Below are positions 1-16,042 of a stretch of 26,658 nucleotides of DNA, piece after piece (the stretch's first letter is position 1; each line of letters begins with the position of its first letter). The position numbers and the translations under genes are program-made. The notes under the pieces were generated by a model. The model saw only the letters and a list, made by a program, of their open reading frames with translations, had not been told where the DNA came from and did not search any database. Origin of the DNA: an uncultured Oscillospiraceae bacterium (GTDB taxonomy: Bacteria > Bacillota > Clostridia > Oscillospirales > Oscillospiraceae); NCBI GenBank assembly GCA_934589705.1, contig CAKTOH010000020.1:1-26658 (forward strand). The letters are read 5' to 3'.

Positions 1-212
1 AGTGGGGACAATGATACTCCCGTCCAGTCACAGCTAGGAACGCAATGAGGGCGGTCACATGAGAACCATGCGAGGGCGCTTAAAGACCCGTGGAGCTGGT
101 ACGCTGCCAGCCGTTTGATGACTTCCCATAATAGCCGGGGTGTCGAGGACAAATAGGCTTCTTCAAACAACAAATCCGCCAGCAACCAGAAATGGGCGCT
201 GGCGGTGTTTAC
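1..212. other. Element interior at left edge, no gene recognised
   Basis: No open frame of convincing length or start signal is visible on either strand. The stretch contains one 8-bp inverted repeat (CCGCCAGC at 176-183 with GCTGGCGG at 198-205) about 50 bases before the toxin gene. No antitoxin-sized ORF is present here. The mobile element continues beyond the left edge, so upstream partners may lie outside the window. Confidence 0.4.
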
Positions 213-236
213 ATAGGCATTCTGCCTATATTTTTT
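213..236 (+). terminator. Short hairpin with U-tract in front of the toxin gene
   Basis: A perfect 7-bp stem (ATAGGCA, loop TTC, TGCCTAT) is followed by an A and six T residues. It ends directly at the GAGGAGG ribosome binding site (237-243) of the MazF-like gene. It could terminate an upstream transcript or act as a weak attenuator for the toxin. The stem is short and AT-rich, so function is uncertain. Confidence 0.45.
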
Positions 237-253
237 GAGGAGGTCAAACACAT

Positions 254-790
254 ATGAAAAACACATATCTTAGAGGGGAATTGTACTACGCAGACCTGGG
301 TACGGGGATTGGTTCTGAGCAGAACGGTTACCGCCCAGTGGTCATCATCCAGAACGATGTAGGGAATCGGCATAGTCCCACTACCATTGTGGCTGCGATT
401 TCCACGCAGATTAAAACCAAGGCGAATCTGCCAACTCACTATCATCTGAAGCCGGGGAGTGGGCTTGTGCAGCCTTCTATGGTCATGCTGGAACAAATCA
501 GAACAGTGGACAAAACCCGATTGGTTCAGTACATCGGAAAGCTGTCTGACGGGGAAATCAAGGGACTGAATCATGCGTTGGCCGTCAGCATCGGCCTGAT
601 TCCCACAACACCCGGAAAACTCACATTGTGCCTGTGTAGCACCTGCGCCGAGAACTTCTACGGCTCAGGTGCTTATTATTTGCGGCGGGTGAATCCCATC
701 GAGGTTGAAAAGGAGCTTTGCACCTACTGTAATCAGAGATCCGGATTCACATATGAAGTTTCTCCCCGCAATAATCAAAGAGGGAAATGA
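254..790 (+). CDS. MazF/PemK-type toxin with C-terminal Cys-rich (zinc-finger-like) tail
   Basis: The 178-residue product begins with a PemK/MazF fold (about residues 1-115): an RGELYYADL strand, YRPVVIIQND, and a VMLEQIRTVDKTRL stretch that is typical of MazF endoribonucleases. MazF-family proteins are usually about 110-120 residues. Here a further ~60 residues carry C126, C128, C131 and C156, C159 (CxCxxC and CxxC), spaced like a small zinc ribbon. The start is set by a GAGGAGG Shine-Dalgarno at 237-243. MazF toxins cleave mRNA and are normally paired with a small antitoxin encoded just upstream, but none is visible in the 250 bases before it. It lies inside the mobile element, 5' of a small ORF and the recombinase. 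The family call is firm; RNase activity and zinc binding by the tail are inferred. Confidence 0.85.
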   Translation: MKNTYLRGELYYADLGTGIGSEQNGYRPVVIIQNDVGNRHSPTTIVAAISTQIKTKANLPTHYHLKPGSGLVQPSMVMLEQIRTVDKTRLVQYIGKLSDGEIKGLNHALAVSIGLIPTTPGKLTLCLCSTCAENFYGSGAYYLRRVNPIEVEKELCTYCNQRSGFTYEVSPRNNQRGK

Positions 791-899
791 CTTGAATTTT
801 GTGATATACAAGGACTTTTCAAATTTTTTTTCGATACAGAGAAACAGACAAGTTCTTGAATCATAGAGTAAGTATCATGCGCAGCCGGGAGTGATGTTT

Positions 900-1073
900 G
901 TGAGCGGTACTGCTTCGTATCAGGCAGAAACACATACGGCCTATATCGGATCAAAAGCAATTACAGTCATTGGATTGACGCCTGTTTTCTCCGACGAACT
1001 GGAAAAGCGAAAAAACAAAGAAAAGATTGAATACGGACTATTCAGCATTTTTGAGAAGTATTCGCACATTTGA
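900..1073 (+). CDS. Small unrecognised protein upstream of the recombinase
   Basis: This is a 57-residue frame starting at GTG 900, chosen because GGGAG (887-891) sits 8 bases upstream; ATG 894 is also in frame but too close to that site. The product starts with a Thr/Tyr-rich stretch and ends in a charged helix-like segment with a KRKNKEKIEYGLFSIFEKY run. I do not recognise the family. It ends 65 bases before the serine recombinase and reads the same way, so it may be an accessory protein of the element, but it could also be a chance ORF. Confidence 0.4.
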   Translation: MSGTASYQAETHTAYIGSKAITVIGLTPVFSDELEKRKNKEKIEYGLFSIFEKYSHI

Positions 1074-1138
1074 GCATATGGAGCTGCCACAGTATAATCA
1101 TGCTGTTGGTGGCTCTTTCTACATAGAGGGGAGAGCTT

Positions 1139-2656
1139 ATGTTAAAATATGATGCGATATACGCGCGACAGTCTGTTGATCGAATGGACAGCATTTCCAT
1201 TGAAAGCCAAATTGATTTTTGCAAATACGAAGCCAGGGGAGGGGAGTACCGAGTATTCCAGGATAAAGGTTACAGTGGTAAAAATACAGATCGGCCAAAT
1301 TTCCAGATCATGCTGGAGGCCATCCGCAGGGGAGAAGTAAAGCGTGTCATCGTGTACAAACTCGACAGAATCAGTCGCTCCATTCTGGACTTTGCCACTA
1401 TGATGGCCGAGTTTCAGGATAATGGCGTTGAGTTTGTATCCTGCACAGAAAAGTTTGATACTTCTACCCCTATGGGGCGGGCAATGTTCAATATTTGTAT
1501 TGTGTTCGCACAGCTTGAACGTGAAACAATACAGCAGCGTGTGACGGATGCCTATATATCAAGAAGCAGAAAGGGCTTCTATATGGGTGGCAGAGTTCCA
1601 TATGGATACCAACTGGAAACCTATACGATTGACGGTAAAAAAACATCTCGATATACCATCGTTCCAGAAGAATCCAAAATCGTGAAGGTTATTTTCTCAA
1701 TGTATGCCGTGCCTCAGACCTCCTTTGGCGATATTGTTCACTATCTGGTGGATAATGGCATTCCAAACGCAAGAGGGAAGGGGCAGGTTTGGGATCGTGC
1801 GAGAATCTCTGATATGATAAAGAACCCGATTTATGTCAAAGCGGACCTCGATATTTACCAGTTTTATAAGGATCAAGGCTCCATTGTACATGACGATCCT
1901 TGCTTGTTTATAGGTACAAACGGATGCTATCTCTATTCAGAGAAGGGGGCTGGGAGAAAAACCATCCATTTGGAAGGGCAGCATGTGGTTCTTGCCCCCC
2001 ACGAAGGAATCGTCCCTTCTGACATCTGGTTAAAAGCACGCCGCAAATGCCTGAATAACAAGCAGGTTGCAAAGCCTTTGAAAGCAAAAAATACATGGCT
2101 GGCAGGAAAAATCAAGTGCGGCAAATGCGGTTATGCGCTGACCATCCGAAAATCCAATACGCAGATCGGGCGCTATTTTATCTGCAGCAGAAGAATGCAG
2201 ACAAATTTCTGCGAAGGTGTCGGCGGCATTGACGCAACCGCGTTTGAAAACCTCATTCTGTCCGAAATGAAAAAGAAGGTGGAGCAGTTTGATGTGCTCA
2301 ATGCCCCGCCTCAAATGCAGAATAACCCACGGATTCTGGAATTAGGTGCCCAAATCGAACAAATTGAGGCAGAAATCGAAAAGCTTCTGAATCGTGTGTC
2401 AGAAGCAGATTCCGTTCTGATGGGATACATCAGCAAAAAAGTGTCTGAGCTGCACAATCAGTCATCAGAGCTGAAGCGCGAGATGAATGAACTGGAACAA
2501 GCGAACATTCAGCCGAAGCTGAATGTCAAACAAATCCGAAACTGTATGCAGCATTGGGAAAAACTGGAGTTTGACGATAAAAGAGCAGTCGTGGATCAGC
2601 TCATTGCCGTCATAAAAGCTACGGAAAACACCTGTGAAATTACATGGAAGGTCTGA
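1139..2656 (+). CDS. Large serine recombinase (site-specific integrase/excisionase of the element)
   Basis: The 505-residue protein has the domain order of large serine recombinases. The resolvase catalytic domain (about 1-150) has YARQS, with R10 and nucleophile S12, and VYKLDRISRS. The recombinase domain follows (about 165-300), then a zinc ribbon with C327, C330, C349 and C358, and a coiled coil rich in Glu/Leu (about 395-460). Length matches the family, and no interruption is seen. The start has GGGGAGA a few bases upstream. These enzymes integrate and excise DNA between attP and attB through a Ser-DNA linkage, and they are usually encoded at the very end of the element they move. Here the stop codon lies only about 20-30 bases from where cotJC sequence begins, which fits a role in inserting this element into cotJC. 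No directionality factor is recognisable in the window. Confidence 0.95.
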   Translation: MLKYDAIYARQSVDRMDSISIESQIDFCKYEARGGEYRVFQDKGYSGKNTDRPNFQIMLEAIRRGEVKRVIVYKLDRISRSILDFATMMAEFQDNGVEFVSCTEKFDTSTPMGRAMFNICIVFAQLERETIQQRVTDAYISRSRKGFYMGGRVPYGYQLETYTIDGKKTSRYTIVPEESKIVKVIFSMYAVPQTSFGDIVHYLVDNGIPNARGKGQVWDRARISDMIKNPIYVKADLDIYQFYKDQGSIVHDDPCLFIGTNGCYLYSEKGAGRKTIHLEGQHVVLAPHEGIVPSDIWLKARRKCLNNKQVAKPLKAKNTWLAGKIKCGKCGYALTIRKSNTQIGRYFICSRRMQTNFCEGVGGIDATAFENLILSEMKKKVEQFDVLNAPPQMQNNPRILELGAQIEQIEAEIEKLLNRVSEADSVLMGYISKKVSELHNQSSELKREMNELEQANIQPKLNVKQIRNCMQHWEKLEFDDKRAVVDQLIAVIKATENTCEITWKV

Positions 2657-2700
2657 TTTTTTATACTTCATCTTGATTGCAGTGCTTCGCCGAACCGCTG
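2657..2700. other. Putative right attachment junction (attR or attL) inside cotJC
   Basis: Left of this stretch is the recombinase gene; right of it, on the minus strand, is cotJC. The CotJC reading frame keeps family-like sequence up to RFGEAL and then ends after three further residues (Gln-Ser-Arg-stop), where homologues continue for roughly a dozen residues. The crossover therefore probably lies around 2672-2690. The exact core cannot be defined without the other end of the element or an empty site. Confidence 0.6.
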
Positions 2701-3210
2701 GAAGTGGACGATCTCCCGTTCCCGGAGGAACCGAATCACGTCATTCACATCCGGGTCATCGCTAAGCCTAAGAATATTGTCGTAGGTCACCCGGGCTTTC
2801 TGTTCTGCGGCCAGGTCTTCCGTTAGATCGGCTATGGGGTCGCCGGTGACGGCGATTCCGGCGGCGTTCCAGGGACTGCCGGAGGCGGCGGTGGGATAGA
2901 CACCGGTGGTGTGATCTACGAAATAGGGCGCAAAACCGGCTTCCCGAATCTGACTGTCGCTGAGCTTCCGGGTCAGCTGGTGGACGATGGCGCCGATCAT
3001 TTCCAGATGCCCCAGCTCTTCGGTCCCAATGTCCGTCAGCAGACCCTTGAGCTCATCGAAGGGCATGGAGTAGCGCTGGGACAGGTAGCGAAGGGAAGCA
3101 CCCAGCTCTCCGTCCGGGCCGCCGTACTGGGAAATGATGATGGCGGCAAGCTTCGGGTTGGGGTTCGTAATCCGGATGGGATATTGGAGCTTCTTGTCAT
3201 AAATAAACAT
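2668..3210 (-). CDS. Spore coat protein CotJC / manganese catalase, 3' end replaced by a mobile element
   Basis: The 180-residue protein aligns in memory with CotJC (B. subtilis CotJC is 189 residues), which belongs to the Mn-catalase family and sits in the spore coat. The expected di-manganese ligands are all visible: E35, E65 and H68 (in TEELGHLE), E136 and H169 (in REREIVHF), with the E65/H68 and E136/H169 spacings of the family. The natural C-terminal tail after RFGEAL is missing; the last codons and stop come from element DNA. The active-site shell is intact, so the truncated protein may still fold, but loss of the tail could affect assembly. It starts 4 bases after the cotJA-cotJB fusion, so the two are translationally linked in one sporulation operon. 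Confidence 0.9.
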   Translation of the reverse strand: MFIYDKKLQYPIRITNPNPKLAAIIISQYGGPDGELGASLRYLSQRYSMPFDELKGLLTDIGTEELGHLEMIGAIVHQLTRKLSDSQIREAGFAPYFVDHTTGVYPTAASGSPWNAAGIAVTGDPIADLTEDLAAEQKARVTYDNILRLSDDPDVNDVIRFLREREIVHFQRFGEALQSR

Positions 3211-3214: not shown

Positions 3215-3655
3215 TTAGCCCTCCTTACTAGCGCCCAATTCCCAGGGCCAGGGATCGTCCAGCCAGGTGTAGCCCCCGTCTCTGGCGGAAATGTGGTTCA
3301 AGGGGCCGTATTTCTTCTCATAAACTTCACGGCAGCGGTCATACAGCTCCTGATACTTCCGGTAAAGCTCCAGGGCTTCCGAATCCTCCCGGTGGGTGTC
3401 CAGATACAGTGCCAGTTCCACAATGGCAAAGTCCAAAGCCTGAAGCTCCGCCAGGGTGGTGGCAGGCAGATTTTCCTTGTTGACCATGCCCAGGAAGGGC
3501 AGGTCAAGCCCCGGAAACAGGGTTCCCCGGGTCAGCGCCTTTTTTGCCTCATATTTGGGCGGATTTTCTAACTGAAAGGGGACATAGGGATTTGCCAGAG
3601 GCGCCATGGCCGGCAGCCGTCCTTGGTAGGTATTTTCCCGATTTTCCTGATTCAA
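3215..3655 (-). CDS. Fused spore coat assembly protein CotJA-CotJB
   Basis: The 146-residue product joins two proteins that are normally separate. Residues about 14-58 look like CotJA (a Pro-rich start, then KALTRGTLFPGLDLPFLG). Residues about 66-140 look like CotJB (LQALDFAIVELALYLDTH, a YEKKYGPL segment, and the closing WLDDPWPWE). In Bacillus, cotJA and cotJB each encode roughly 80-90 residues and are followed by cotJC. The single uninterrupted frame with one start supports a true gene fusion. The start follows an AGGAGG site, and a sigma-E-like promoter lies upstream on the same strand. The role inferred from the family is building a coat layer with CotJC in the mother cell. A frame-shift error joining two genes is possible but not suggested by the sequence. 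Confidence 0.85.
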   Translation of the reverse strand: MNQENRENTYQGRLPAMAPLANPYVPFQLENPPKYEAKKALTRGTLFPGLDLPFLGMVNKENLPATTLAELQALDFAIVELALYLDTHREDSEALELYRKYQELYDRCREVYEKKYGPLNHISARDGGYTWLDDPWPWELGASKEG

Positions 3656-3695
3656 AGCACATTCCTCCTAATGAAAAAGATTGTCGCTCCAGGGC

Positions 3696-3724
3696 AGTCT
3701 ATGTCTTTTCCCGCCGAAATGTTC
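3696..3724 (-). promoter_or_regulatory. Candidate sigma-E promoter of the cotJ operon
   Basis: Read on the minus strand, GAACATT is followed after 14 bases by CATAGACT. This resembles the mother-cell sigma-E pattern (GNATATT, 13-15 bases, CATACANT). It lies about 40 bases before the start of the cotJA-cotJB fusion. In B. subtilis the cotJ operon is sigma-E dependent, which supports the reading. It is a motif match only. Confidence 0.5.
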
Positions 3725-3768
3725 AATCTTGCCGGGCTGCCGCATAGAAATAGCGGGAGGTGGTGGCA

Positions 3769-4464
3769 GTGAAACGATGGGGCTATTATTTTGTGTGCAT
3801 CGGAGTCATGTGCGGGATGCTTCTGGGAGCCTATTGGGGAAACCGGGTGGTTTCTGTGATTTCGGAGGGGCTTTCCGGCAATAGTCGGCACTGTGTAATT
3901 CTCGATCCGGGCCATGGGGGAGAGGACGGTGGGGCGTCCTCCTGCACAGGCCGCTTGGAAAGTGCCTACAATCTGGAAATTGCTCTGCGGCTGGACGATC
4001 TGCTGCGCCTGCTGGGTTATGATACGAAGCTCATCCGAAAAGAGGACGTGTCCGTCTACACCACCGGGCAGACCATTGCCCAGAAGAAGGTTTCCGATCT
4101 GAAAAACCGGGTGAAAACCGTGAACGCCGCCCCAAACGGAATTCTCATCAGCATTCACCAGAATTATTTCCCCGATTCCCGGTACAGCGGGGCCCAGGTC
4201 TTCTACGGAACGTCCGAGGGAAGCGAGGCCCTGGCAAAGAAGCTGCAAGCCGCTGTCGTGACCACCCTGAACCCGGGAAGCCGCCGAAACGCCAAACAGG
4301 GGAGAGGGATTTATCTTCTGGAGCACGTCCGGTGCCCAGGGGTACTGGTGGAGTGCGGCTTTCTGTCCAATCCACAGGAAGAAGCTCTTTTGCGAGAACC
4401 CTCTTATCAGAAAAAGCTGTGCTGCGTCATTGGTACGGCGTTGAGTCAGTACCTGAACCCATGA
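3769..4464 (+). CDS. cwlD: N-acetylmuramoyl-L-alanine amidase CwlD (spore cortex)
   Basis: The 231-residue protein has an N-terminal membrane anchor (about residues 6-24) and an Amidase_3 domain. Zinc ligands are visible as H49 (DPGHGGEDGG), E64 (RLESAYN) and H130 (ISIHQN), with the catalytic E195 in VECGFLSN. Length and motif order fit CwlD, which removes the peptide side chain from muramic acid so that muramic-delta-lactam can form in the spore cortex. GTG 3769 is chosen as start because GGGAGG (3755-3760) lies 8 bases upstream; in-frame GTG codons at 3760 and 3763 overlap or abut that site. It is divergent from the cotJ operon, keeping two sporulation loci side by side. A vegetative amidase of the same family is the alternative. 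Confidence 0.9.
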   Translation: MKRWGYYFVCIGVMCGMLLGAYWGNRVVSVISEGLSGNSRHCVILDPGHGGEDGGASSCTGRLESAYNLEIALRLDDLLRLLGYDTKLIRKEDVSVYTTGQTIAQKKVSDLKNRVKTVNAAPNGILISIHQNYFPDSRYSGAQVFYGTSEGSEALAKKLQAAVVTTLNPGSRRNAKQGRGIYLLEHVRCPGVLVECGFLSNPQEEALLREPSYQKKLCCVIGTALSQYLNP

Positions 4465-4469
4465 AAAAA

Positions 4470-4493
4470 GACCATATCCGATCGGATACGGTC
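4470..4493. terminator. Hairpin after cwlD
   Basis: A 24-base near-perfect palindrome (one mismatch) starts 5 bases after the cwlD stop. It is preceded by six A residues and followed by GTTTCCTTCTT, so it could end transcription from either side, with a better U-tract on the minus strand. Confidence 0.65.
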
Positions 4494-4629
4494 GTTTCCT
4501 TCTTAGTCAGGATAAAAAGTCCGTTAAGGGGGTGCGGTTCTTTGCCGAAGAAAGGGGAGAGCCTTCCTGAAACATTGCGCTAAGTGAAAATACTTTTTTG
4601 TAAAATGAGTATGTTTTTCTATACACCCC

Positions 4630-4658
4630 TTGCAAACCGGAAAGAAGCGCGGTATACT
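4630..4658 (+). promoter_or_regulatory. Sigma-A promoter of the 40-residue ORF
   Basis: TTGCAA at 4630-4635 and TATACT at 4653-4658 are separated by exactly 17 bases. It is followed about 30 bases later by a strong Shine-Dalgarno and a short ORF, and there is no other gene before the next terminator. Confidence 0.7.
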
Positions 4659-4702
4659 ATGATTGGAAGAACCAAAACGGTCATATTTTAGGAGGCGCTT
4701 CC

Positions 4703-4825
4703 TTGGCTGCCGCCACTGTGCGGGGACGGATTCTCACCGTTTCGCACAAGGAGCAGATCGGAGAATTATATCCGCAGGTGCTGGAAACGCTGGTGTACGG
4801 TGCTTGCAGGGAGTTATTTGAATAA
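4703..4825 (+). CDS. Autonomous 40-residue protein, unknown function
   Basis: A TTG-started frame of 40 residues (starting MAAATVRGRILTVSHKEQ and ending in VYGACRELFE) is placed 7 bases after an AGGAGG (4690-4695). It has its own sigma-A promoter at 4630-4658 and its own terminator hairpin 7 bases after the stop codon. The full set of expression signals within about 225 bases argues that this is a real small gene. The composition is mixed charged and hydrophobic with no membrane segment. I do not recognise the family. A remnant of a longer gene is possible, but would not explain the compact promoter-ORF-terminator layout. Confidence 0.65.
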   Translation: MAAATVRGRILTVSHKEQIGELYPQVLETLVYGACRELFE

Positions 4826-4832
4826 GCGGAAG

Positions 4833-4854
4833 GCCGCAGAAATGCGGCTTTTCC
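4833..4854 (+). terminator. Terminator of the 40-residue ORF
   Basis: GCCGCA, loop GAAA, TGCGGC, followed by TTTTCC. It is a stable GNRA-type tetraloop hairpin placed directly after the small ORF. Confidence 0.75.
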
Positions 4855-4864
4855 AAGGCATATC

Positions 4865-4917
4865 GGTTAGCTACCTCTAACCAAGCAGCTGCGCGGATCG
4901 GTTAGCCGAATCTAACT
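4865..4917. promoter_or_regulatory. Two tandem operator-like dyads (GGTTAG-N6-CTAACY)
   Basis: GGTTAG and CTAACC with 6 bases between occur at 4865-4882. A second copy with one changed end base (GGTTAG, 6 bases, CTAACT) is at 4900-4917, exactly 35 bases downstream. Paired identical half-sites with fixed spacing suggest a dimeric repressor or activator. They precede the methyltransferase region. The half-sites recall DtxR/IdeR-type metal boxes, but the match is loose and the regulator is unknown. Confidence 0.5.
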
Positions 4918-4926
4918 CTGAGAGGA

Positions 4927-5091
4927 ATGACAGAGAAGCGAAAACATAAGAATTTCTGGGACAGAAATGCCGGTCGGTACGGCCGCGGCATGACCGTCTG
5001 CAAGGATGCCGAGCTGGAACAGGCGGACTTTCCCGATGAGCAGAGACACAAAAAGAAGGACTGGCTCCGCGCCACGGCGCGGAAGGGGTGA
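4927..5091 (+). pseudogene. N-terminal remnant of a SAM-dependent methyltransferase
   Basis: A 54-residue frame with a GAGAGG ribosome site begins with MTEKRKHKNFWDRNAGRYG, the typical opening of class I methyltransferases of the FWDR-A-x-RY type. No SAM-binding motif follows; the frame continues into an unrelated charged stretch and stops. It looks like the start of a gene whose body was lost by deletion. It ends just before the intact methyltransferase at 5130, which has its own different N-terminus. Confidence 0.55.
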
Positions 5092-5129
5092 AGACAAAGT
5101 ATGGAGATTTTGCATCTGGAGGGATGAAC

Positions 5130-5813
5130 ATGGAACGAAAAGAGACTATTCGCGGCGCATACCGACTGACAGGAGAAAACAGCTTCTATGACGGCATGAT
5201 TACCTGCTCTACCCTGAGCGGAAAAGCGGTGTGCCGTCTGGTGTGGGCAATGAACAAGGCGGAAAACGACGATTATCTGGAAAAGGCGCTGTCCGGTATT
5301 CCGGAGCATTTCTCCGGTAAGCTGCTGGAGGTACCGGTGGGAACCGGCATTCTGACCATGCCGGTTTATCAGACGATGCCCGAAGCGGACATTACCTGTT
5401 TGGATTACTCGGCGGATATGATGGGGCAGGCACGGGAAAAGGCAGAGCGCCTGCACCTGAAAAATGTAACCTTCCGACAGGGCGATGTGGGTGCGCTTCC
5501 CTATGCGGACGGTGCCTTTGACATTGTTTTGTCGCTGAACGGCTTTCACGCTTTCCCGGACAAGGAGGCAGCTTATCGGGAGGTTTCCCGGGTTTTGAAG
5601 CCCGGCGGAACCTTCTGCGGCTGCTTCTATGTGGCGGGAGAACAGAGACGGACGGATTGGTTCGTCCGGCATGTTTATGAAAAGACAGGATTTTTCACGC
5701 CGCCCTATGAGACGGTTTCCAGCCTGAAAAACCGTATGGAGCGCATGTATACAGCCGTGACCCTTGGAATAGTGAAGAGCATGGCATGGTTTACCTGCCG
5801 GAAAGCAGAATGA
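5130..5813 (+). CDS. Class I SAM-dependent methyltransferase
   Basis: The 227-residue protein has a Rossmann-type SAM-binding fold. Motif I is LLEVPVGTG (about 65-73, a slightly unusual Pro in place of the common Gly), followed by the acidic ribose-binding position in CLDYSADMM (about 90-98), GDVGALPYADGAFDIV (about 118-133) and LKPGGTF (about 156-162). It belongs to the UbiE/Methyltransf_11 group, but the substrate cannot be told. ATG 5130 is chosen because GGAGGG (5118-5123) lies 6 bases upstream; longer in-frame starts overlap that site or the upstream remnant. It is followed 13 bases later by a truncated hydrolase gene, suggesting a once longer operon downstream of the tandem dyads. Confidence 0.85.
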   Translation: MERKETIRGAYRLTGENSFYDGMITCSTLSGKAVCRLVWAMNKAENDDYLEKALSGIPEHFSGKLLEVPVGTGILTMPVYQTMPEADITCLDYSADMMGQAREKAERLHLKNVTFRQGDVGALPYADGAFDIVLSLNGFHAFPDKEAAYREVSRVLKPGGTFCGCFYVAGEQRRTDWFVRHVYEKTGFFTPPYETVSSLKNRMERMYTAVTLGIVKSMAWFTCRKAE

Positions 5814-5826
5814 GGAGGAACAAGTA

Positions 5827-5970
5827 ATGCTGTTTCAAACTTATGGCAACCGGAATCACCCTGCGGTGCTGTTCTTTCACGCTATGGGCGTGACAGGAGA
5901 GAGCAGCGAACCGGTTGCGAACTATTTGCAGGATCGGTATTTCTGCATTCTGCCCACCTCCACTGTGTGA
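5827..5970 (+). pseudogene. Truncated alpha/beta-hydrolase (N-terminal 47 residues)
   Basis: With a well-placed AGGAGG (5813-5818), this frame encodes a fragment containing AVLFFHAMGVTGESSEPVA and RYFCILPT, the first strands and oxyanion-hole region of an alpha/beta hydrolase that normally runs past 200 residues. It stops after 47 residues, before the nucleophile elbow, and the next gene begins at once. The C-terminal part is not present nearby, so a deletion is the likely cause. Translation of the fragment is possible but activity is not. Confidence 0.65.
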
Positions 5971-5992
5971 TATGCAATTGGAGGGACAAAGC

Positions 5993-6412
5993 GTGACCTA
6001 TTTTGGAATGCCCATGGGCATGTGGACGCTGTTTGCACCGTCCTTCCGAAACCAGCTGACAGTGGTGTTCGGCTACGGTACGAATACGGCAAAAGCCATC
6101 ACAGAAAAAGCCAAGCTGAAATACAAGGAGATCATCCGTGATCTGCCGAAGTTTGAAAAGGGCGACCGGTTCAAGATGAACCTTGTCAACTGCGCCATGA
6201 TCGGCGCGTTCATTCTCTCCATGCCGGAGCGCCCGGATGTGGAACGGCTGACGGATTACTACGCAAAATCCATGATGACAAAGCCGATGAAATGGTTCTG
6301 CCGCAGGAGCGGAAAGAGCTAATTCACCGAAAAGGACATTGCCGGTATGAAAGCCACCGCCGCCCTGAGAGCCGCTGACCGTAACCCCTATTCCTGGAAT
6401 GGTATCTTGTAA
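5993..6412 (+). pseudogene. Degraded L-2-amino-thiazoline-4-carboxylic acid hydrolase-like gene
   Basis: From GTG 5993 (GGAGGG just upstream) the frame reads about 109 residues, including YFGMPMGMW, KGDRFKMNLVNCAMIGAF and LTDYYAKSMMTKPMKWFC. It then meets TAA at 6320-6322. The same frame continues past the stop with family-like sequence (FTEKDIAGMKATAALR, then AADRNPYSW) before a second stop at 6410. This resembles the ATC-hydrolase family as I remember it, with an internal nonsense codon and loss of the C-terminal Cys-containing part. Sequencing error at the first stop would restore only part of the gene, so it is probably decayed. Confidence 0.65.
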
Positions 6413-6448
6413 GTATGGCTTTTAACATACTCAAACTGCACCATAAAA

Positions 6449-6483
6449 AACAAACAGGCCGGTTGGGAAACCACCTGTTTGTT
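6449..6483 (-). terminator. Terminator hairpin, minus-strand orientation
   Basis: AACAAACAGG and CCTGTTTGTT form a 10-bp stem with a further inner GGTT/AACC pairing. Read on the minus strand the stem is followed by TTTTTT. It could end transcription of the DMT-family gene (6773-7627), which reads toward it. Confidence 0.55.
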
Positions 6484-6510
6484 CCGGGAGCGGCATAGCA
6501 TATAAAAAAA

Positions 6511-6570
6511 GAAAACAGTACACTTTTTGAGAGGCAAAACCTGCCCCTCAGATTTTGTGTACTGTTTTTT
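6511..6570. terminator. Large bidirectional terminator-like hairpin
   Basis: AACAGTACAC (6514-6523) pairs with GTGTACTGTT (6557-6566), with a second inner pairing of GAG-GG and CC-CTC blocks. T-runs flank it in both readings. It separates the decayed plus-strand cassette from the minus-strand transporter operons. Confidence 0.6.
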
Positions 6571-6648
6571 GGGTATAATTGGCCGTTTTTTCCTGGGCAT
6601 GTGCCAAAAAGAGGGGCTGCTTCGAACGATTTTGAAAAATCATTTTGA

Positions 6649-6693
6649 GACAGTCCCTTGCAAAAATCTTTGATTTTTGACTGAGGGATTGTC
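6649..6693. repeat. Imperfect foldback sequence in intergenic gap
   Basis: GACAGTCCCT (6649 on) pairs imperfectly with AGGGATTGTC ending at 6693, and an inner AAAAATC (6662-6668) pairs with GATTTTT (6672-6678). It may be one copy of a dispersed intergenic repeat. The rest of the 6413-6772 gap contains the two terminators above and no gene that I can support. Confidence 0.4.
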
Positions 6694-6772
6694 AAATTGC
6701 GTCAGCAAATGAGTACCATTGGAAAACGTACAATCCACCGGTTCCGAGGGCAATTTTCGCTGATTACGGCTT

Positions 6773-7627
6773 TTACAGCAGCATTCCCAGGGTTCCCGCC
6801 ACAATCAGCCCCAGACCCAGGCCGGAGCGGCGGGTAAGCTTTTCATGGAAGACCACATAGGAAAAGGCCACGGTTACCAGAATGCTCAGTTTGTCGATGG
6901 GCACCACCACGCTGGCCAGGCCGTCCTGCAATGCCCTGTAATAGCACAACCAGGAGCCGCCGGTGGCAAGACCCGACAGGCAGATGAAGCCCAGCTCCCT
7001 GCCGGAAATTTCCCGGATCTCACCGCCCTTGCCGGTGACGAAGACCATGCCCCAGGCCATGACCAGCACCACCCCGGTGCGGATGGCGGTACCCAGATTG
7101 GACTCCACCCCGGAAATGCCGATTTTCCCCAGAATGGAGGTCAGGCTGGCAAACACCGCGGAGCCGATGGCATAGGGCAGCCACTTGCCGCTTTTGCTTT
7201 TCTGCCCCTCCTTCTTCTCGATCATCAGGAAAGTGCCGGCGCCGATGAGCGCCACGCACACCGCCTTAATCGCCGTAATCGGCTCTCCCAGAAGCAGGAA
7301 AGCCAGCACAATGGTCAGGACGGTGCTGGATTTGTCAATGGGCACCACCTTGTTGATATTTCCCAGCTGGAGTGCCCGGAAATAGCACAGCCAGGAGGCT
7401 CCGGTGGCAAGGCCTGACAGCACCAGAAACAGCAATGTCTTTCCCGTCAGACTTCCCAGCTGGCTCTGGGAGCCCACGAGAAACACCATCCCCCAGGAAA
7501 AGGCCAGCACCACAACGGTGCGGATGGCGGTAGCCAGGGTGGAATCCGTTTTCCGGATGCCGCACTTGGCGAGAATGGATGTCAGTCCGGCAAGCAGTGC
7601 CGAGCCGAACGCGAAGAGAACCCACAT
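6773..7627 (-). CDS. DMT/EamA-family transporter
   Basis: The 284-residue membrane protein is built of two EamA repeats. A near-duplicate motif appears in each half: GSALLAGLTSILAKCGI near the start and GSAVFASLTSILGKIGI after the middle, each followed by a TAIRT segment and, later, by LSGLATG-SWLCY. About ten hydrophobic segments are visible. This is the drug/metabolite exporter layout; the substrate is unknown. ATG 7627 is chosen because GGGAGGG lies 8 bases upstream. The operon-like neighbours to the right are separated from it by a strong terminator (7703-7738), so it is probably a separate transcription unit. Confidence 0.9.
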   Translation of the reverse strand: MWVLFAFGSALLAGLTSILAKCGIRKTDSTLATAIRTVVVLAFSWGMVFLVGSQSQLGSLTGKTLLFLVLSGLATGASWLCYFRALQLGNINKVVPIDKSSTVLTIVLAFLLLGEPITAIKAVCVALIGAGTFLMIEKKEGQKSKSGKWLPYAIGSAVFASLTSILGKIGISGVESNLGTAIRTGVVLVMAWGMVFVTGKGGEIREISGRELGFICLSGLATGGSWLCYYRALQDGLASVVVPIDKLSILVTVAFSYVVFHEKLTRRSGLGLGLIVAGTLGMLL

Positions 7628-7702
7628 CTTTCTTTCCCTCCCGGAACCGACGTTTTCCTCTATTATAGTACATCTTGCTTCCTCCGGCAAGTGCCGCCGC
7701 GG

Positions 7703-7738
7703 AAAAAGGCCCTCCGGTGCTGGAAAGCACCGAAGGGC
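7703..7738 (-). terminator. Terminator of the amino acid ABC operon
   Basis: On the minus strand GCCCTTCGGTGCT, a short loop and AGCACCGGAGGGC form a stem of about 13 bp (with one mismatch) followed by TTTTT. It lies 23 bases after the cytidylate-kinase-like stop codon. Confidence 0.85.
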
Positions 7739-7760
7739 GAAAGAATAAGGAGGGCGAGAT

Positions 7761-8354
7761 TCAATCCAGAGAAAAGTGCTGTCTGACGATGCCGCACAGC
7801 AGCTTTGCCGCCTCCGGGATGGAAAACCGGGCGGAGTTGATCAGCACATGGCTGTAGTGATCCGGCTCGCAGCCGCCGTACTCCCGGTGGTACTGCTCCC
7901 GGCTTTTGTCCACCCGGTCAATCATTTTCCGGGCCATCTTGGGATCCATGGACAGCTGCCCGGTGCACACCCCCAGCCGGTACTCATAGGGGGCATAGAC
8001 CCGGATGTTGAACACATCCGTCCGATCCTTCAGCACCGCGTCGGCGCAGCGACCTACAATGATGCAGCTTTCCTTCTCGGCCAAGTCCCGGATAATGTTG
8101 GACTGGGTCTGAAACAGCTCGTCCTGGACGCTTAAATTGCCGGTACCCAGGGGGTACAGACTCCGGAAGAAGCTGGTGCTGTGGGAGTCCTCGGTGTCGC
8201 TGACCTCCCGGACGGGAAGCCCCAGCCGGGAGGCTGTGGCCTCCACAATATCCCGGTCGTAGAAGTTGATCCCCAGCTCCCGGCTCATGGCCTGGGCAAT
8301 GGGACGGCCGTTGCTGGCAAACTGCCGGGTCAGGGTGACGACAAAATGCTTCAT
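7761..8354 (-). CDS. Cytidylate-kinase-like protein (AAA/NTP kinase fold)
   Basis: The 197-residue protein resembles the cytidylate-kinase-like family (PF13189 type): a degenerate P-loop in TRQFASNGRPIAQ near the N-terminus, NFYDRDIV, CIIVGRCAD, a run of Arg in the lid region (RVYAPYEYR) and a C-terminal helix. True CMP kinases have a clear GxxGxGK(S/T), which is lacking here, so its substrate is unknown. Its ATG overlaps the stop of the upstream permease (ATGA), so it is translated with the amino acid importer. That coupling is unusual and suggests a regulatory or signalling role, which is inference. The operon terminator follows directly. Confidence 0.8.
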   Translation of the reverse strand: MKHFVVTLTRQFASNGRPIAQAMSRELGINFYDRDIVEATASRLGLPVREVSDTEDSHSTSFFRSLYPLGTGNLSVQDELFQTQSNIIRDLAEKESCIIVGRCADAVLKDRTDVFNIRVYAPYEYRLGVCTGQLSMDPKMARKMIDRVDKSREQYHREYGGCEPDHYSHVLINSARFSIPEAAKLLCGIVRQHFSLD

Positions 8355-9112
8355 AGGGCTGCCTCCTGTTTTTTCCGGGTGGTTCCCCGCCGCTGAATCC
8401 GCCTGACGGCGCAGGACAGGGCAAAGTTGATGACAAAATAAATCACAAAGGCCAGACCGAACAGGACGAACACGTCGCTGACCATCTGCCGTCCCACCCC
8501 GTTGAACATATTGGAGGTGGCCAGGATCTTCCGCACCCGGCTCATCAGCTCAATGCAGGCCAGATTCGCCAGATAGCTGGAATCCTTCACCGTGGAGATC
8601 ACCTGGCTCAGCAGGGTAGGCACCACCGCCCGATAGGCCTGGGGCAGGATAATATATCCCATGGTCTGCACCATGGAAAAGCCCTGGGTGTGGGCGGCCT
8701 CAAACTGACCCTTGGGGATGGCGTTCAGTCCGCCCCGGATGATTTCGGCAATGATGGAGGACTCAAAGAGCACCAGAGCCACCACCGCCCGGAAGAGGAT
8801 TTTCATTTCCACGCTGGTCAGCCCCCACATTTTCCGGGCGAAGAACTTGGGGCAGGGGCAGGCCACCAGGCAGATAAAAATCCACAGAAGCAGCGGGGTA
8901 TTTCGGAAAATCTCAATATATACGGTAGAAATCCACTGAAAAATCCGGCTTTTTCCCGTGCAGTAGTTCCGGCACAAAGCCAGCACGCTGCCGAGCAAAA
9001 TGCTGATGACCACGGCCAGCACGGACAGCACCAGGGTAAAGGCCACGCCCTTGCCGATGTAGCTCAGCACACCGGGGTAGCTCAAAATGGAAACGCTTGC
9101 CTGCCAGTTCAT
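8351..9112 (-). CDS. Polar amino acid ABC transporter permease (second subunit)
   Basis: The 253-residue integral membrane protein has the HisM/GlnP-type fold, with several hydrophobic segments and the EAA loop readable as IPKGQFEAAHTQGFSM, which contacts the ATPase. RNTPLLLW is another family signature. The start codon follows the stop of the first permease with no gap (TAA then ATG), and the end overlaps the kinase-like gene. With its paralogue at 9113-9826 it should form the heterodimeric membrane channel. The substrate is probably a polar amino acid; which one is not visible. Confidence 0.93.
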   Translation of the reverse strand: MNWQASVSILSYPGVLSYIGKGVAFTLVLSVLAVVISILLGSVLALCRNYCTGKSRIFQWISTVYIEIFRNTPLLLWIFICLVACPCPKFFARKMWGLTSVEMKILFRAVVALVLFESSIIAEIIRGGLNAIPKGQFEAAHTQGFSMVQTMGYIILPQAYRAVVPTLLSQVISTVKDSSYLANLACIELMSRVRKILATSNMFNGVGRQMVSDVFVLFGLAFVIYFVINFALSCAVRRIQRRGTTRKKQEAAL

Positions 9113-9826
9113 TTACGCCGCCTCCTTTGTCAGTTTGGTGCTCTGGGATTCCCGCCGCTTCAGGCTGGTCTCCCAGCGGGTGGCCAGATGGCTCAAGGGA
9201 TAGCAGATGCAGAAGAACATGGCGCCGCACAGAATGTAAGCCGGGGCGTAAGCGCCGCCGGTGGAGGCGCCGGTGACAAAGCTGTAGGTCAGGCTGATGA
9301 GATCCGCGCCGCCGACGATGTACAGGCAGCTGGTATTCTTGATCAGGTTCACCATCTGGTTGACCATAGGCGGCAGGATAATCTTGATGCTCTGGGGCAG
9401 GATGATCTGCCACATGGTGTCAAAATAGCCGAAGCCCTGACTTTCCGCCGCCTCAAACTGTCCTTTCGGGATGGAGGCAATGCCCGCCCGAACCACCTCG
9501 GACATATAAGCTCCGGTGTAAACGCCCAGTGCCGCAATGCCGGTGGCGATGATGTCCGTCTTCACTCCGGAGAAGGCCAGCACATAGTACAGAAAACACA
9601 TCTGCAAAACCACCGGCGTATTCTGAATGAACTCCACATACACCCGAGCCACTGCCCGCAGTCCCCGGTTCTGGGAGGATGCCATCAGGCCGAAAAGGAA
9701 TCCCAGGATCAGAGCCAGAATCAGAGCCACCGCCGCGGTGCGCAGGGTGTTGCCAAAGCCGGTGAGAAAAGTAGCCCGGTAAATCCACAGCTTCTGCCAG
9801 GCAGCGGGAGAAAAAAATTCATCCAT
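9113..9826 (-). CDS. Polar amino acid ABC transporter permease (first subunit)
   Basis: The 237-residue membrane protein is paralogous to its downstream neighbour. It shows FGNTLRTAAVALILAL at the first membrane segment, EFIQNTPVVLQ and the EAA loop IPKGQFEAAESQGFGY. ATG 9826 is chosen because AGGAGG lies 8 bases upstream (9835-9840); the open frame extends further upstream but that part is rich in unlikely composition and lacks a ribosome site. It is separated from the binding-protein gene by 142 bases that hold two hairpins. Confidence 0.93.
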   Translation of the reverse strand: MDEFFSPAAWQKLWIYRATFLTGFGNTLRTAAVALILALILGFLFGLMASSQNRGLRAVARVYVEFIQNTPVVLQMCFLYYVLAFSGVKTDIIATGIAALGVYTGAYMSEVVRAGIASIPKGQFEAAESQGFGYFDTMWQIILPQSIKIILPPMVNQMVNLIKNTSCLYIVGGADLISLTYSFVTGASTGGAYAPAYILCGAMFFCICYPLSHLATRWETSLKRRESQSTKLTKEAA

Positions 9827-9887
9827 GGGTAGAACCTCCTTTGGGTTTCGGAATGTCCGAAAAGCGGTATGTTCCAAGGGAACACTT

Positions 9888-9959
9888 GGAAAATTCCCTG
9901 AAAGTCCAGGAAATTTTCCAAATGCTTCCGCAATCGCGGGGTGGAAACCCACCCCGCGA
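9888..9959 (-). promoter_or_regulatory. Two intercistronic hairpins between binding protein and permeases
   Basis: One stem pairs TTGGAAAATT with AATTTTCCAA around a 16-base loop (about 9893-9921). A second, GC-rich stem pairs GCGGGGTGG with CCACCCCGC (about 9936-9958). Placed right after the binding-protein stop, such structures commonly limit read-through or protect the upstream message so that binding protein is made in excess. That function is inferred from position. Confidence 0.6.
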
Positions 9960-9968
9960 AATTGACGG

Positions 9969-10889
9969 TCAGCCCAGGTTGTAATCCGCAACCCAGCCCG
10001 CGATGGTGCCGTCAGCCAGCTTGGCGGTGACGAAGTCCTCGCAGTAGGTGCTGAAGCCGGAGCCCTTCTTGGTGGCAATGCCGTAGTCCTGGGGGGCAAA
10101 CTCATCGGCAATGTAGCTGCGGCCCTCGGTCTTGTAAACCGCCAGGATGGACTTATCCACGCAGAAGGCATCTACCTGACCGGCAGCCAGAGCGGTGGAA
10201 ATGCCGGGATAGTCGTCGAACTGCTGGAAGGAAATGCCCTCGGTCCAGGTAGCCGGATCAAAGGTCTCCTTGTCGAAGCCCGTGCCGTCGATGACACCGG
10301 CATCGATCATGGCGGAGGTCAGTGCCCGGGCGGAGGTGGAGCCGGAGGACACGCCAACCAGCTTGCCCTTCAGGTCAGCCAGAGACTGGATTCCGGAGGA
10401 ATCCTCCACCAGCACCGTTACATGGTCGGTGTAGTAGGGGGTGGTAAAGTCCCAGCTCTGCTTGCGCTCGTCGGTGATGGTGAAGGTTGCCAGAACGCAG
10501 TCGATGTCGCCGGAATCCAGAAGCTCGGTACGGGTAGCGGCGGTGACGGTGGTAAACTCCACATCCACGCCCAGCTGCTCGGCCAGAGCCTTGGCAATGT
10601 CGATTTCCATGCCGATGTACTCACCGGTAATGGGATCCTGATAGCCGAAGCCGATAACGGCGTTCTTTACGCCCACACGCAGGACACCCCGATCCACGAT
10701 GGCCTGGACATCCGCGTCCAGGGCGGCGGCGGTTTCCCCGGCGGTGGTTGCCGCGGGCGCTTCCGTGGCAGCCGCGGTGGCGGCAGGGGCAGAGGTGGCA
10801 GCGGGAGCGGAACTACCGCCGCAGCCGGTCAGACCCAGTACCAGAAGGCCGGCCAGAACACCGGATAATACTTTTGTCAGCTTTTTCAT
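9969..10889 (-). CDS. Amino acid ABC transporter substrate-binding lipoprotein
   Basis: The 306-residue protein has a lipoprotein signal with the lipobox LTGC (Cys23), an Ala/Thr-rich linker (about 27-60), and an SBP_bac_3 domain: GVLRVGVKNAV, GMEIDIAKALAEQLG, ELLDSGDIDC, LADLKGKLVGVSSGST and FSTYCEDFV. It would capture the amino acid outside the membrane and deliver it to the permease pair. It sits between the ATPase gene (upstream) and the permeases, with a GGAGG ribosome site and a small GC-rich stem (CTCCCC/GGGGAG) just upstream. Confidence 0.93.
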   Translation of the reverse strand: MKKLTKVLSGVLAGLLVLGLTGCGGSSAPAATSAPAATAAATEAPAATTAGETAAALDADVQAIVDRGVLRVGVKNAVIGFGYQDPITGEYIGMEIDIAKALAEQLGVDVEFTTVTAATRTELLDSGDIDCVLATFTITDERKQSWDFTTPYYTDHVTVLVEDSSGIQSLADLKGKLVGVSSGSTSARALTSAMIDAGVIDGTGFDKETFDPATWTEGISFQQFDDYPGISTALAAGQVDAFCVDKSILAVYKTEGRSYIADEFAPQDYGIATKKGSGFSTYCEDFVTAKLADGTIAGWVADYNLG

Positions 10890-10958
10890 ATTCGTTTCCT
10901 CCTTATTGGTTGTCTCCCCTGGTCAGGGGGAGCTATATCCAGGCCAACAGCCCAAATA

Positions 10959-11693
10959 TCAGTGTTTCAGAATTTTGCCCAGGAACTGCTTGACTCTGGA
11001 ATTCTGGGGATTTTCGAAGAAGTGCTCCGGCGTGCCCTCCTCGATGATCTGGCCGTCTGCCATGAACACCACCCGGTCGGCCACCTTCCGGGCAAAGCCC
11101 ATTTCGTGTGTCACCACCACCATGGTGATGTTCTCGGAGGCCAGCTTGATCATTACGTCCAGCACCTCCTGGATGGTTTCCGGATCCAGCGCGGAGGTAG
11201 GCTCATCGAAGAGGATAATCCGGGACTGACAGCACAGCGCCCGGGCAATGGCAATTCTCTGCTGCTGGCCGCCGGAGAGGGTAGTGGGATAGGCACCGGC
11301 CTTGTCCCGCAGACCTACCACGTCCAGATAGTGATAGGCCAGAGCCTCCGCCTCCTCCCGGGTCTTGTGATGGAGCTTCATAGGCGCAAGGGTCAGATTT
11401 TTCAGCACGGTCATATGGGGATAGAGGTTGAACTGCTGGAACACCATGCTCATGTTCTCCCGAACCATCTGCCTCTTGTTCCGATGGGTCAGCTCCTGTC
11501 CGGCAACGAACACCTTGCCGCTGGTAGGCTCCTCCAGGAAGTTCATGCAGCGCACGGTGGTGGACTTGCCGGAGCCGGAGGGGCCGATGATCACCAGCTT
11601 CTCTCCTTCTGCCACGGTCAGATCCACATCCTTCAGCACATGCAGATCGCCGAACATTTTATTCACTTTTTCCAGCCGAATCATGTCGCCCAT
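10959..11693 (-). CDS. Amino acid ABC transporter ATP-binding protein (GlnQ type)
   Basis: The 244-residue ATPase has Walker [10 protein letters not shown] (37-45), a Q-loop in [13 protein letters not shown], the signature LSGGQQQR (139-146), Walker B IILFDE (159-164) and a switch His in VVTHEMGFA. It is first in the operon and powers the importer with the downstream binding protein and permeases. ATG 11693 is preferred over ATG 11699 because AGGTGA (11701-11706 on the minus strand) lies 7 bases before it and only 1 base before the other. Confidence 0.95.
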
Positions 11694-11708
11694 TGGCATC
11701 TCACCTCG

Positions 11709-11752
11709 AAAAAAAGGGCGCTTTGACTGCCTGCCGACAGTTCAAAGCGCCC
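11709..11752 (-). terminator. Terminator-like hairpin in the leader of the ABC operon
   Basis: On the minus strand GGGCGCTTTGA pairs perfectly with TCAAAGCGCCC (11 bp, plus an inner CTG/CAG) and is followed by seven T residues. It lies between the consensus promoter (11766-11795) and the ATPase ribosome site. It may attenuate the operon or give a stable 5' stem to its message. Confidence 0.7.
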
Positions 11753-11765
11753 TTGCTTTTGCCAT

Positions 11766-11795
11766 ATTATACCCGTCACCCGGTGAAATTGTCAA
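11766..11795 (-). promoter_or_regulatory. Consensus sigma-A promoter of the ABC operon
   Basis: On the minus strand TTGACA and TATAAT are separated by 18 bases. Both hexamers are perfect. Transcription would start near 11759, only about 7 bases before the hairpin listed above. Confidence 0.8.
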
Positions 11796-11893
11796 TACCG
11801 GGAATCTCCAAAATATCCCCCTCACGGACAAATGTCCTTTGTGCACAATCAACGAATTTGAATCGACCATTTGTGAGAATAGCCAAAGACCTA

Positions 11894-12290
11894 AGAAACC
11901 TCTGATTTAATCCGAGCTACCATCCGGCAGCAAAATATGATATAATAGAGCCATCAAACAAAGGCGGTGCCCAAAATGAAGCAAGATACCTTTACCGACA
12001 TTGAATACAGCTTCCGCAAGAAGAAAACCAAGCGGGAGAAATTCCTGGAAATCATGGACGAAATCATCCCCTGGGACGAGTGGGTTGGTGTCATTGAACC
12101 CTACTATCCCAAGGGAAAGCGTGGCCGTCCGCCCATGGGCATTGAAAAAATGCTGCGGATGTATCTGCTTCAGATCTGGTTCAACCTGTCCGATCCGGCA
12201 ACAGAGGATGCCATCTATGACAGCTATGCCATGCGGAAATTCACAGGCATTGACTTCATGACTGAGGCAGTGCCGGATGAAACAACTTTG
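11894..12290 (+). mobile_element. IS5-family element, left part only
   Basis: An inverted-repeat-like end (GAAACCTCTGATTTAATCC, starting about 11895) is followed by a TATAAT at 11941 and a transposase frame. The element breaks off inside the transposase near 12290 and no matching right half follows. The terminal sequence is similar to both ends of the MITE-like element at 15815-16032. Confidence 0.65.
11976..12290 (+). pseudogene. Truncated IS5-family transposase (N-terminal ~105 residues)
   Basis: The frame carries the N-terminal helix-turn-helix and dimer region of IS5 transposases: DIEYSFRKKKTKREKFLEI, IIPWDEWVGVI, KGKRGRPPMGIEKMLRMYLLQ and DAIYDSYAMRKFTGIDF. Family-like sequence ends at PDETTL, where homologues continue toward the first catalytic Asp region. 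The frame then runs on into unrelated sequence to a stop at 12434. The DDE catalytic core is absent, so the gene is dead. Confidence 0.8.
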
Positions 12291-12398
12291 GTCACCCCAA
12301 TGGTAAGAAGGTCCAGATCACGAATGGACAGCCCCAACTGGACACAGCGTAGGAGAAACAGGGGCGTGGTCATTTGCCGTTCAGTCGGGCGAAGTTTT

Positions 12399-12628
12399 TT
12401 AGACTCCACATCCGTCTGCACGTTCACCTGTTAAATCCGAACTTAAGGCAGCTTCAATTTCTTGCATGGCCAGAGTCTGACTGCCGTCTTTATAATGGTA
12501 GGTCAGGATTAGTTTATCGTCGCATCGATGATCCCCGGAATTCCATCTGGGATGATGACTTTCCCATATTTGTATTCTCCGATATACTTGCGATTTTTCA
12601 GAAAATTGCTGAGGACACCCGCAGAATT
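12399..12628 (-). pseudogene. Serine recombinase remnant with internal deletion
   Basis: On the minus strand one frame reads GVLSNFLKNRKYIGEYKYG followed by KVIIPDGIPGI, part of the recombinase domain of a large serine recombinase. Shifted by a frame, it continues with DDKLILTYHYKDGSQT and a LAMQEIEAALSSDLT segment, which matches the usual C-terminal end of such recombinases. The two parts abut near 12510, so the zinc ribbon and coiled coil were lost. No catalytic domain is present. It is unrelated in sequence to the intact recombinase at 1139-2656. Confidence 0.6.
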
Positions 12629-12631
12629 TTA

Positions 12632-12660
12632 TTGCACGACGCGCTCCGATGTGTTATAAT
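12632..12660 (+). promoter_or_regulatory. Promoter of the binding-protein/histidine-kinase pair
   Basis: TTGCAC (12632-12637) and a perfect TATAAT (12655-12660) are 17 bases apart. It lies beside the recombinase debris and leaves a leader of about 145 bases before the first gene, with a small ACTGCT/AGCAGT hairpin near its start. Confidence 0.65.
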
Positions 12661-12810
12661 TAATTGGTTAGACACTGCTAAGACCAGCAGTTTATGTTTC
12701 AAAACCGGTTGAGAGAAAGGTACGGGAAAAGACGGTCGGAGGCGTAAAATCCGGCGGAGGCGTACAGAATCGCAGGCCATTGAAAAGCAACAAAAGGCAG
12801 GAAATCAGAT

Positions 12811-16032: not shown

Positions 16033-16042
16033 CTATAACGAA

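Follow-up and report, generated by a model that had tools for sequence, protein, structure and literature searches.

In the genome of an uncultured Oscillospiraceae bacterium the spore coat gene cotJC is broken near its 3' end by an integrated element that carries a large serine recombinase (LSR), and the explanation preferred here (probability about 0.72) is that the element splits cotJC at a conserved GGCGAAGC and is excised in the mother cell, whereby the gene is rejoined. The DNA in question, called the window below, is the whole stretch of 26,658 nt that was analysed (GenBank assembly GCA_934589705.1, contig CAKTOH010000020.1, positions 1 to 26,658). Many related gut bacteria keep both parts of cotJC, cut at one or more of four fixed points, which suggests that the parts are rejoined, probably in the course of spore formation. 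A first-pass annotation of the window had proposed a developmental element of the skin type; that reading is strengthened by breaks in cotJC throughout the family and by purifying selection on the split pieces in one genome pair, and the phenomenon is wider than first thought, with four sites in cotJC and breaks in a further gene, spoIVA. Genomes, contigs and loci are numbered with the letters G, C and L where they have to be told apart.

The cotJC junction in the window and in its relatives

The right-hand part of the integrated element occupies positions 1..2683; the window begins inside the element, whose left end lies beyond it, and the cotJC tail is absent within the window. The LSR gene (505 aa; 1139..2656, + strand, stop codon at 2654-2656) and the cotJC head (2668..3210, − strand; 180 aa, PF05067 E 3e-54) face each other. 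CotJC-derived DNA begins at ~2684, 27 nt past the LSR stop codon, in agreement with the gap of about 20-30 bases estimated in the first-pass annotation. The last positions of the element form a terminal arm, ATACTTCATCTTGATTGCAGT (2663..2683), and like arms stand at the LSR-side ends and, inverted, at the far-side ends of relatives. The arm is followed by the junction core (2684..2691, − strand), which reads GGCGAAGC on the cotJC strand and supplies Gly-Glu-Ala codons; the 5' part of cotJC thus consists of codons 1-176 followed by four codons encoded by the element.

Intact relatives have a CotJC of 198 aa ending ..RFGEACQLLREKLNQKNVYYMNPALDL, whereas the window protein ends ..RFGEALQSR*, so that ~22 terminal residues are replaced by LQSR, with the break at GGCGAAGC. 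Loss of the C-terminal tail at the junction had therefore been recognized correctly, but the foreign residues number four (LQSR) and not three as first described. Among 120 relatives listed, 12 have a CotJC of 180 aa and the remainder one of 194-211 aa, nearly all 198. Since all 12 aligned 180-aa proteins stop at one place (QSR, QSI, QSK or QSA), truncation in the window is not due to chance. The possibility raised beforehand that element-free homologues might end at the same residue is not borne out, as they extend ~22 residues farther than the break. Relatives 94-98% identical to the window include both intact forms of 198 aa and truncated ones of 180 aa, and the element is thus polymorphic among close relatives. 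The same junction is found in IMG/VR contigs (L002, L003 and L006, three of 11 loci).

The far end of the element and rejoining of cotJC

Sixty-six genome loci were compared, nine of which have an LSR at least 57% identical to that of the window in one near full-length segment. A piece of cotJC stands at the LSR end in eight of these nine; within the DNA stretches examined, no cotJC match was seen at any of the other 57 loci. The ninth locus (L016, in G005) has a recombinase of the window family (67%) and shares the element end, and its genome gave no match to cotJC.

A search for the missing 3' codons at the far end of the element, suggested in the first-pass annotation as a check, located them in relatives with the same orientation: the tail is present there in three (G003, G004 and G009) of the five window-orientation genomes, and was not found for the other two, G001 and G002. 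Contig C90 of G001 is 94.4% identical to window positions 1-3027, and its element extends for ~21 kb up to the contig end without a cotJC tail. The opposite orientation, in which the LSR lies on the tail side, is seen in L017, L018 and L020; head and tail are retained in G007 and G008, which have this other orientation, and in L018 and L020 they flank the element on one contig. For G003, G004, G009, G007, G008 and G006 the tails observed rule out a mere truncation of cotJC. At its two ends the element carries, in inverted orientation, copies of a sequence resembling ACTTCAYSTTGRYTG; the recombinase site is therefore nearly palindromic, which fits both orientations.

At the window's site, called site 180, heads and tails were joined on paper at a shared GG[CT]GA, which is common to the head and tail sides in G003, G004, G008, G009, G076 and G081 and gives in-frame rejoining there, that is, in six of seven pairs (four window-family elements and two other site-180 elements); the head and tail of G007 did not fit the pattern. 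The rejoined cotJC of G003 reads ..HFQRFGEAIELAKEKLDQKNIYLTNPAFDR. G009 is the isolate Acutalibacter sp. 1XD8-33 (L062). On its contig C50 (L098, L099, L169) a piece with cotJC residues 1-65 (40880-41086) lies beyond the 168-197 tail (about 55972-56061) and not upstream of the 60-178 piece (80983-81342), and cotJA/cotJB are still attached to the 1-65 piece.

Four break sites in cotJC across the family and order

Intact CotJC was searched against 200 genomes of the family of G001, and 159 gave a match; 149 of these, with a best E of 4e-47 or better, were accepted as orthologues, and the remaining 10 are weaker or paralogous. By hand count among the matches listed, 47 of these 149 genes are broken at a position away from contig edges; the count of broken genes leaves out G032 and G172, whose breaks coincide with contig edges, and the doubtful G033. 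The breaks fall at four fixed sites, codons ~28, 62, 137 and 178, with ranges among the matches listed of ~25-30, ~46-64 (most ~58-64), ~137 and ~178-188. The same break places recur in a draw of 147 genomes from the order, 121 of them with a cotJC match (10 already in the family set); the new genomes listed comprise 60 with full-length cotJC and about 40 with partial cotJC, a hand count that takes in any at contig edges.

With 40 regions fetched in addition to the loci at hand, 40 of the 47 broken genomes were read (all except G046, G084, G107, G138, G168, G195 and G199). There are 60 breaks over 45 genomes and the window; at 25 of the 60 both pieces lie inside the fetched stretch, and at 37 a serine-recombinase gene is located no more than 250 nt from a junction that was read. 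The window and G001-G009 were found through the recombinase and hence bias the latter count; without them 46 breaks remain, 18 with both pieces and 24 with a nearby serine-recombinase gene, and at many of the breaks lacking a recombinase nearby just one junction was read. Two sites are broken in 14 of the 45 genomes, and G157 has three cotJC pieces and two recombinases. Open reading frames continue across the break in 19 of 20 pairs at sites 28, 62 and 137 (G009 failed), where the open frame follows from profile alignment and the shared cores are just 3-13 nt long. In split loci cotJA/cotJB stand directly upstream of the first cotJC piece wherever a match arose. The recombinases group by site in their best matches: those of site 28 are 45-64% identical among the listed matches, those of site 62 form two groups, and those of site 180 comprise the window's group, L155/L165 at 50-56% to it, and L153/L138 at about 36%.

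Control genes and spoIVA

The ribosomal L4 gene gave a match in 166 of 200 genomes, three of them clearly partial by best E (G036, G102, G156) and none in complementary pieces. For recR, chosen as a non-sporulation gene of the same length as cotJC, 184 of 200 genomes gave one match each, with a single clearly partial one (G025). SpoIVA, which is needed for sporulation, was matched in 170 of 200 genomes, with two matches in nine and a low best E in three more (G090, G111, G127). Four genomes, G041, G098, G150 and G186, have spoIVA interrupted at codon ~399-406, and in each a serine-recombinase gene adjoins the tail piece (split loci L172-L174, L177, L184-L186 and L188); in G098 the pieces lie about 30.7 kb apart on one strand of one contig. 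Other double matches were set aside: those of G046 and G104 are at contig edges, that of G055 is an adjacent overlap, that of G173 reflects another break, and that of G032 is incomplete. As L4 and recR are rarely partial and spoIVA is split, such interruption is characteristic of cotJC and also affects a second sporulation gene. The sigK model also catches related sigma factors, and sigK was not counted as a further split gene.

Selection on split cotJC

Two genomes, G205 (L153) and G062 (L154), have 14.5 kb in common at 89.1% identity. The shared DNA covers the flank, the cotJC head, a complete site-62 element of 4.8 kb, the middle piece and the beginning of a site-180 element, and the simplest account is therefore that the split state was inherited. 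Between the two, the cotJC pieces show a synonymous divergence (dS) of 0.46 and a nonsynonymous divergence (dN) of 0.0024, a ratio of 0.005 over 179 codons with the tail beyond site 180 left out, whereas the site-62 recombinase has a dS of 0.89 and a ratio of 0.091. The comparison concerns one pair, which is not of the window's lineage. Because a gene broken twice and useless would not be expected to stay near-frozen, the split cotJC of these genomes is in use.

The recombinase, the small gene upstream of it and their promoters

The window LSR has the Pfam domains PF00239 (Resolvase), PF07508 (Recombinase) and PF13408 (Zn_ribbon_recom) and matches a PHROG integrase (E 6.5e-103). DUF4368 is present in 63% of the multi-targeting LSR clade (PMC10083194); a Pfam search of the window LSR at E 0.001 gives only the three domains named, without DUF4368.

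Upstream of the LSR lies a gene for a small protein of 60 aa with a GTG start (891..1073, +), a candidate recombination directionality factor by analogy. In 14 of 15 window-family elements (the exception is L014) an open reading frame (ORF) of 57-60 aa precedes the LSR at a distance of 58-78 nt, with the consensus ..G.K..TV.N..PVF..EE....I..GLY.IF.KY. It has no Pfam or PHROG match, and profile and fold searches gave nothing meaningful; the protein is modelled as beta-beta-alpha, a beta hairpin and a helix (pLDDT 78.5, pTM 0.43). Between this ORF and the LSR is a sigma-A-like, vegetative-type promoter (1070..1098, +; TTGAGC-17 nt-TATAAT), and a TTGA..-TATAAT promoter stands at one position there in nine of 12 upstream regions, so that the two genes look separately transcribed. 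The -10 box sits in the loop of a covarying inverted repeat (1081..1115, +), followed by TTTC. Across the nine aligned sequences (L012 and L003 duplicate other sequences, and the hairpin is lacking in L018), 94.4% of the cells of its 12 pairs are paired and six pairs have changed on both sides. This hairpin could be a terminator of the small-ORF transcript or an operator.

Cargo of the elements and neighbouring genes

Insert sizes lie between about 1.9 kb (L136) and about 25 kb (G009), and small inserts (about 2-5 kb) keep the recombinase gene, although the smallest (L136) has just a 337-aa frame. Between the cotJC pieces of G083 (L141, G083:C7:906500-926400) a type I-C CRISPR-Cas system (Cas1c, Cas4, Cas7, Cas3) occupies 3395-19387. 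In L159 (G098:C8:50000-69950) cotJC is split at codon 137, and polyamine-synthesis genes (carboxynorspermidine decarboxylase (NspC), S-adenosylmethionine decarboxylase and a basic amino acid decarboxylase-like gene) lie between the pieces at 10163-19172. Further cargo includes genes for a pyrimidine-nucleoside phosphorylase (G106) and for an oxidoreductase (G205). By this content several elements look like islands rather than phages, as does gin in gerE (PMC5595907); a Pfam scan of three large ORFs from two related elements gave no phage structural match. Relatives of the window element occur in IMG/VR. In viral contigs cotJC is seen at a single locus, together with three recombinase frames, two of them long and the third shorter; a pattern search for attP in these contigs proved too loose and was not used.

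The cargo of the window element includes a PemK/MazF-family toxin gene (254..790, +; PF02452 E 2.6e-30) preceded on its 5' side by a pemK RNA motif (8..93, +; Rfam RF02913, 44.5 bits against a gathering score of 34.8). On the other side of the junction an uninterrupted fused cotJA-cotJB (3215..3664, −; PF11007, PF12652) lies directly upstream of cotJC, followed by a CwlD-like gene (3760-4464; match below the model's curated cut-off). A SpoIIID-like gene, corresponding to the one reported nearby in the first-pass annotation, lies at 21359-21607 (−; TIGR02844 E 3.6e-28, below the model's curated cut-off). A fragment of an IS5-family transposase lies at 11967-12434.

Evaluation of the explanations

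In the preferred explanation, the window contains the right end of an element that is integrated at a conserved GGCGAAGC near the 3' end of cotJC, leaving a head of 176 codons in the window and a tail of ~22 codons that is expected at the far end. The window element would be one of many serine-recombinase elements that use four fixed attachment sites in cotJC across the order. A sigma-A promoter would drive the LSR, and the product of the small ORF in front of it would act as directionality factor; with the factor made in the mother cell, LSR and factor would recombine both element ends, so that a circular element is released and the reading frame of cotJC restored, whereas the chromosome of the forespore would retain the element. 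This division of labour is proposed because the layout resembles that of SPbeta and of the C. difficile skin element.

Several observations weigh against this explanation. The window's own tail has not been seen, nor has one been found for G001 (94% identical DNA) or G002, and the element is not fixed, since intact and truncated alleles coexist in close relatives. The 180-aa CotJC might work without its tail, and cotJC may itself be dispensable. Upstream of the small ORF, in a scan of 10 elements, sigma-E-like motifs occur in two (0.76 expected), a sigma-K-like motif in one (0.15 expected) and the SpoIIID box in none (0.49 expected). For a shared sigma-E/K or SpoIIID motif at this place these frequencies are near background, the sigma-K-like site being found just in the window and its near-twin L012. 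The median pN/pS of split genes is slightly above that of intact ones, both for C-terminal pieces (0.288 vs 0.266; 10 pieces, 43 intact) and for heads (0.218 vs 0.182; 17 heads), in group medians for which synonymous sites are near saturation and most insertions may be young; an ancestral insertion is shown in just one genome pair. The cotJC pieces of G009 stand in an odd order, through either a rearrangement or an assembly fault.

The strongest competitor, though an unlikely one, is an ordinary mobile element for which cotJC is a harmless landing site and which leaves in transfer or phage induction, not in development. Mobility among close relatives (the coexisting alleles), relatives in the viral contig set and cargo such as CRISPR-Cas and polyamine genes all suit such an element, as does the mild outcome of losing CotJC: insertional mutants of two CotJC genes of C. 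difficile have less catalase activity and no significant coat defect, and B. subtilis CotJC mutants have no apparent defect (PMC11222575, PMC12122855). However, breaks at sites 28, 62 and 137 would be expected to kill the protein, yet the pieces of G205 and G062 are near-frozen (0.005); moreover, even small inserts of about 2-5 kb retain the recombinase gene (in L136 a 337-aa frame), and spoIVA is hit likewise.

It is far less probable that the pieces are not rejoined as DNA and work separately or are spliced as RNA or protein. Their being open reading frames would suit this, with no direct test result in its favour, but the presence of a site-specific recombinase gene at the edge of 37 of 60 breaks points to DNA recombination. 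Group II introns were rejected as the interrupting elements, none being found at Rfam gathering scores in the eight sources scanned (inteins were not searched for). Least probable of all, to the point of being negligible, are chimeras produced in assembling metagenome bins: most of the genomes are fragmented and the piece order in G009 is odd, but identical breakpoints are found again and again in dozens of genomes, including contigs of Mb size (G083:C7, 2.28 Mb; G106:C1, 2.19 Mb), with recombinase genes at the breaks and the control genes intact.

Implications

A broader reading, in which cotJC of this order is a gene in pieces whose four fixed integration sites, served by site-specific groups of recombinases, harbour one or two elements at a time, so that the gene is assembled by one or more mother-cell excisions, the cargo being kept in the spore and other sporulation genes, spoIVA at least, behaving likewise, is given somewhat better than even odds. 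If it is true, the dying mother cell would be the only place where cargo such as CRISPR-Cas, polyamine, nucleoside phosphorylase and toxin genes is lost. In the literature as accessible, sporulating cells are described as excising DNA in a programmed way from just a few genes; in the genomes examined here cotJC is broken at the same four places in roughly one third of those of one family that have the gene (47 of 149) and, of 100 further genomes from the order, in about 40. Should excision be developmental, trimming of the mother-cell genome would be widespread among spore-formers of the gut, and the reason why mobile elements insert into genes of the mother cell could be tested in many natural cases. 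The cotJC sites also offer natural sets of site-specific recombinases and their targets, and for annotation, cotJC and spoIVA genes recorded as truncated or absent from genomes of this kind may in fact be neither the one nor the other.

Comparison with known systems

The literature search, with subscription papers and supplements (e.g. the tables of PMC10083194) outside its range, returned no paper on an insertion inside cotJC or spoIVA, and the earlier statement that no described example in cotJC was known therefore holds within this range. The interrupted sporulation genes named in PMC10747680 and PMC6957869, as far as their accessible text goes, are sigK, spsM, spoVFB, spoVR, gerE, yabG and kamA, and not cotJC or spoIVA. 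The nearest case is the prophage phi027 of C. difficile R20291, whose attachment site adjoins the CotJC homologue CDR20291_1465 (also cotG); unlike in the cotJC elements, the CotJC-like gene lies downstream of attR, and the accessible text describes no split or rejoining (PMC11222575, PMC12122855).

The element in sigK, skin (B. subtilis; skinCd in C. difficile), is alike in its serine recombinase, in splitting a mother-cell sporulation gene and in in-frame rejoining. The cotJC elements differ in targeting a coat protein gene and in their small ORF, which has no Pfam or PHROG relatives, and in them mother-cell control is a proposal. In skinCd the recombinase CD1231 is expressed from a sigma-A promoter and the directionality factor CD1234 is a separate 72-aa protein (PMC5025042). 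The non-viral gin element in gerE of Bacillus cereus ATCC10987 (PMC5595907) likewise interrupts a sporulation gene that is rejoined in sporulation; gin has one site and three recombinases as described in the accessible text, whereas in cotJC there are four sites, with recombinases of several groups. Vfbin (spoVFB), the spoVR element, yin (yabG) and phi3T (kamA) are also elements in sporulation genes (PMC10747680, PMC6957869). SPbeta in spsM resembles the window element in having a unit of integrase and small rdf gene (sprA/sprB), in a different target gene, and its YokA (9dxh) is among the solved recombinases nearest to the window LSR. In SPbeta sprA has a sigma-A promoter and sprB a sigma-E/K promoter (PMC6957869), and in both SPbeta and C. 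difficile skin mother-cell control rests on the small directionality factor (PMC6957869, PMC5025042). The cotJC elements would thus belong to a known class of mechanism, with a new target and several sites per gene, and the breadth of their occurrence would be new.

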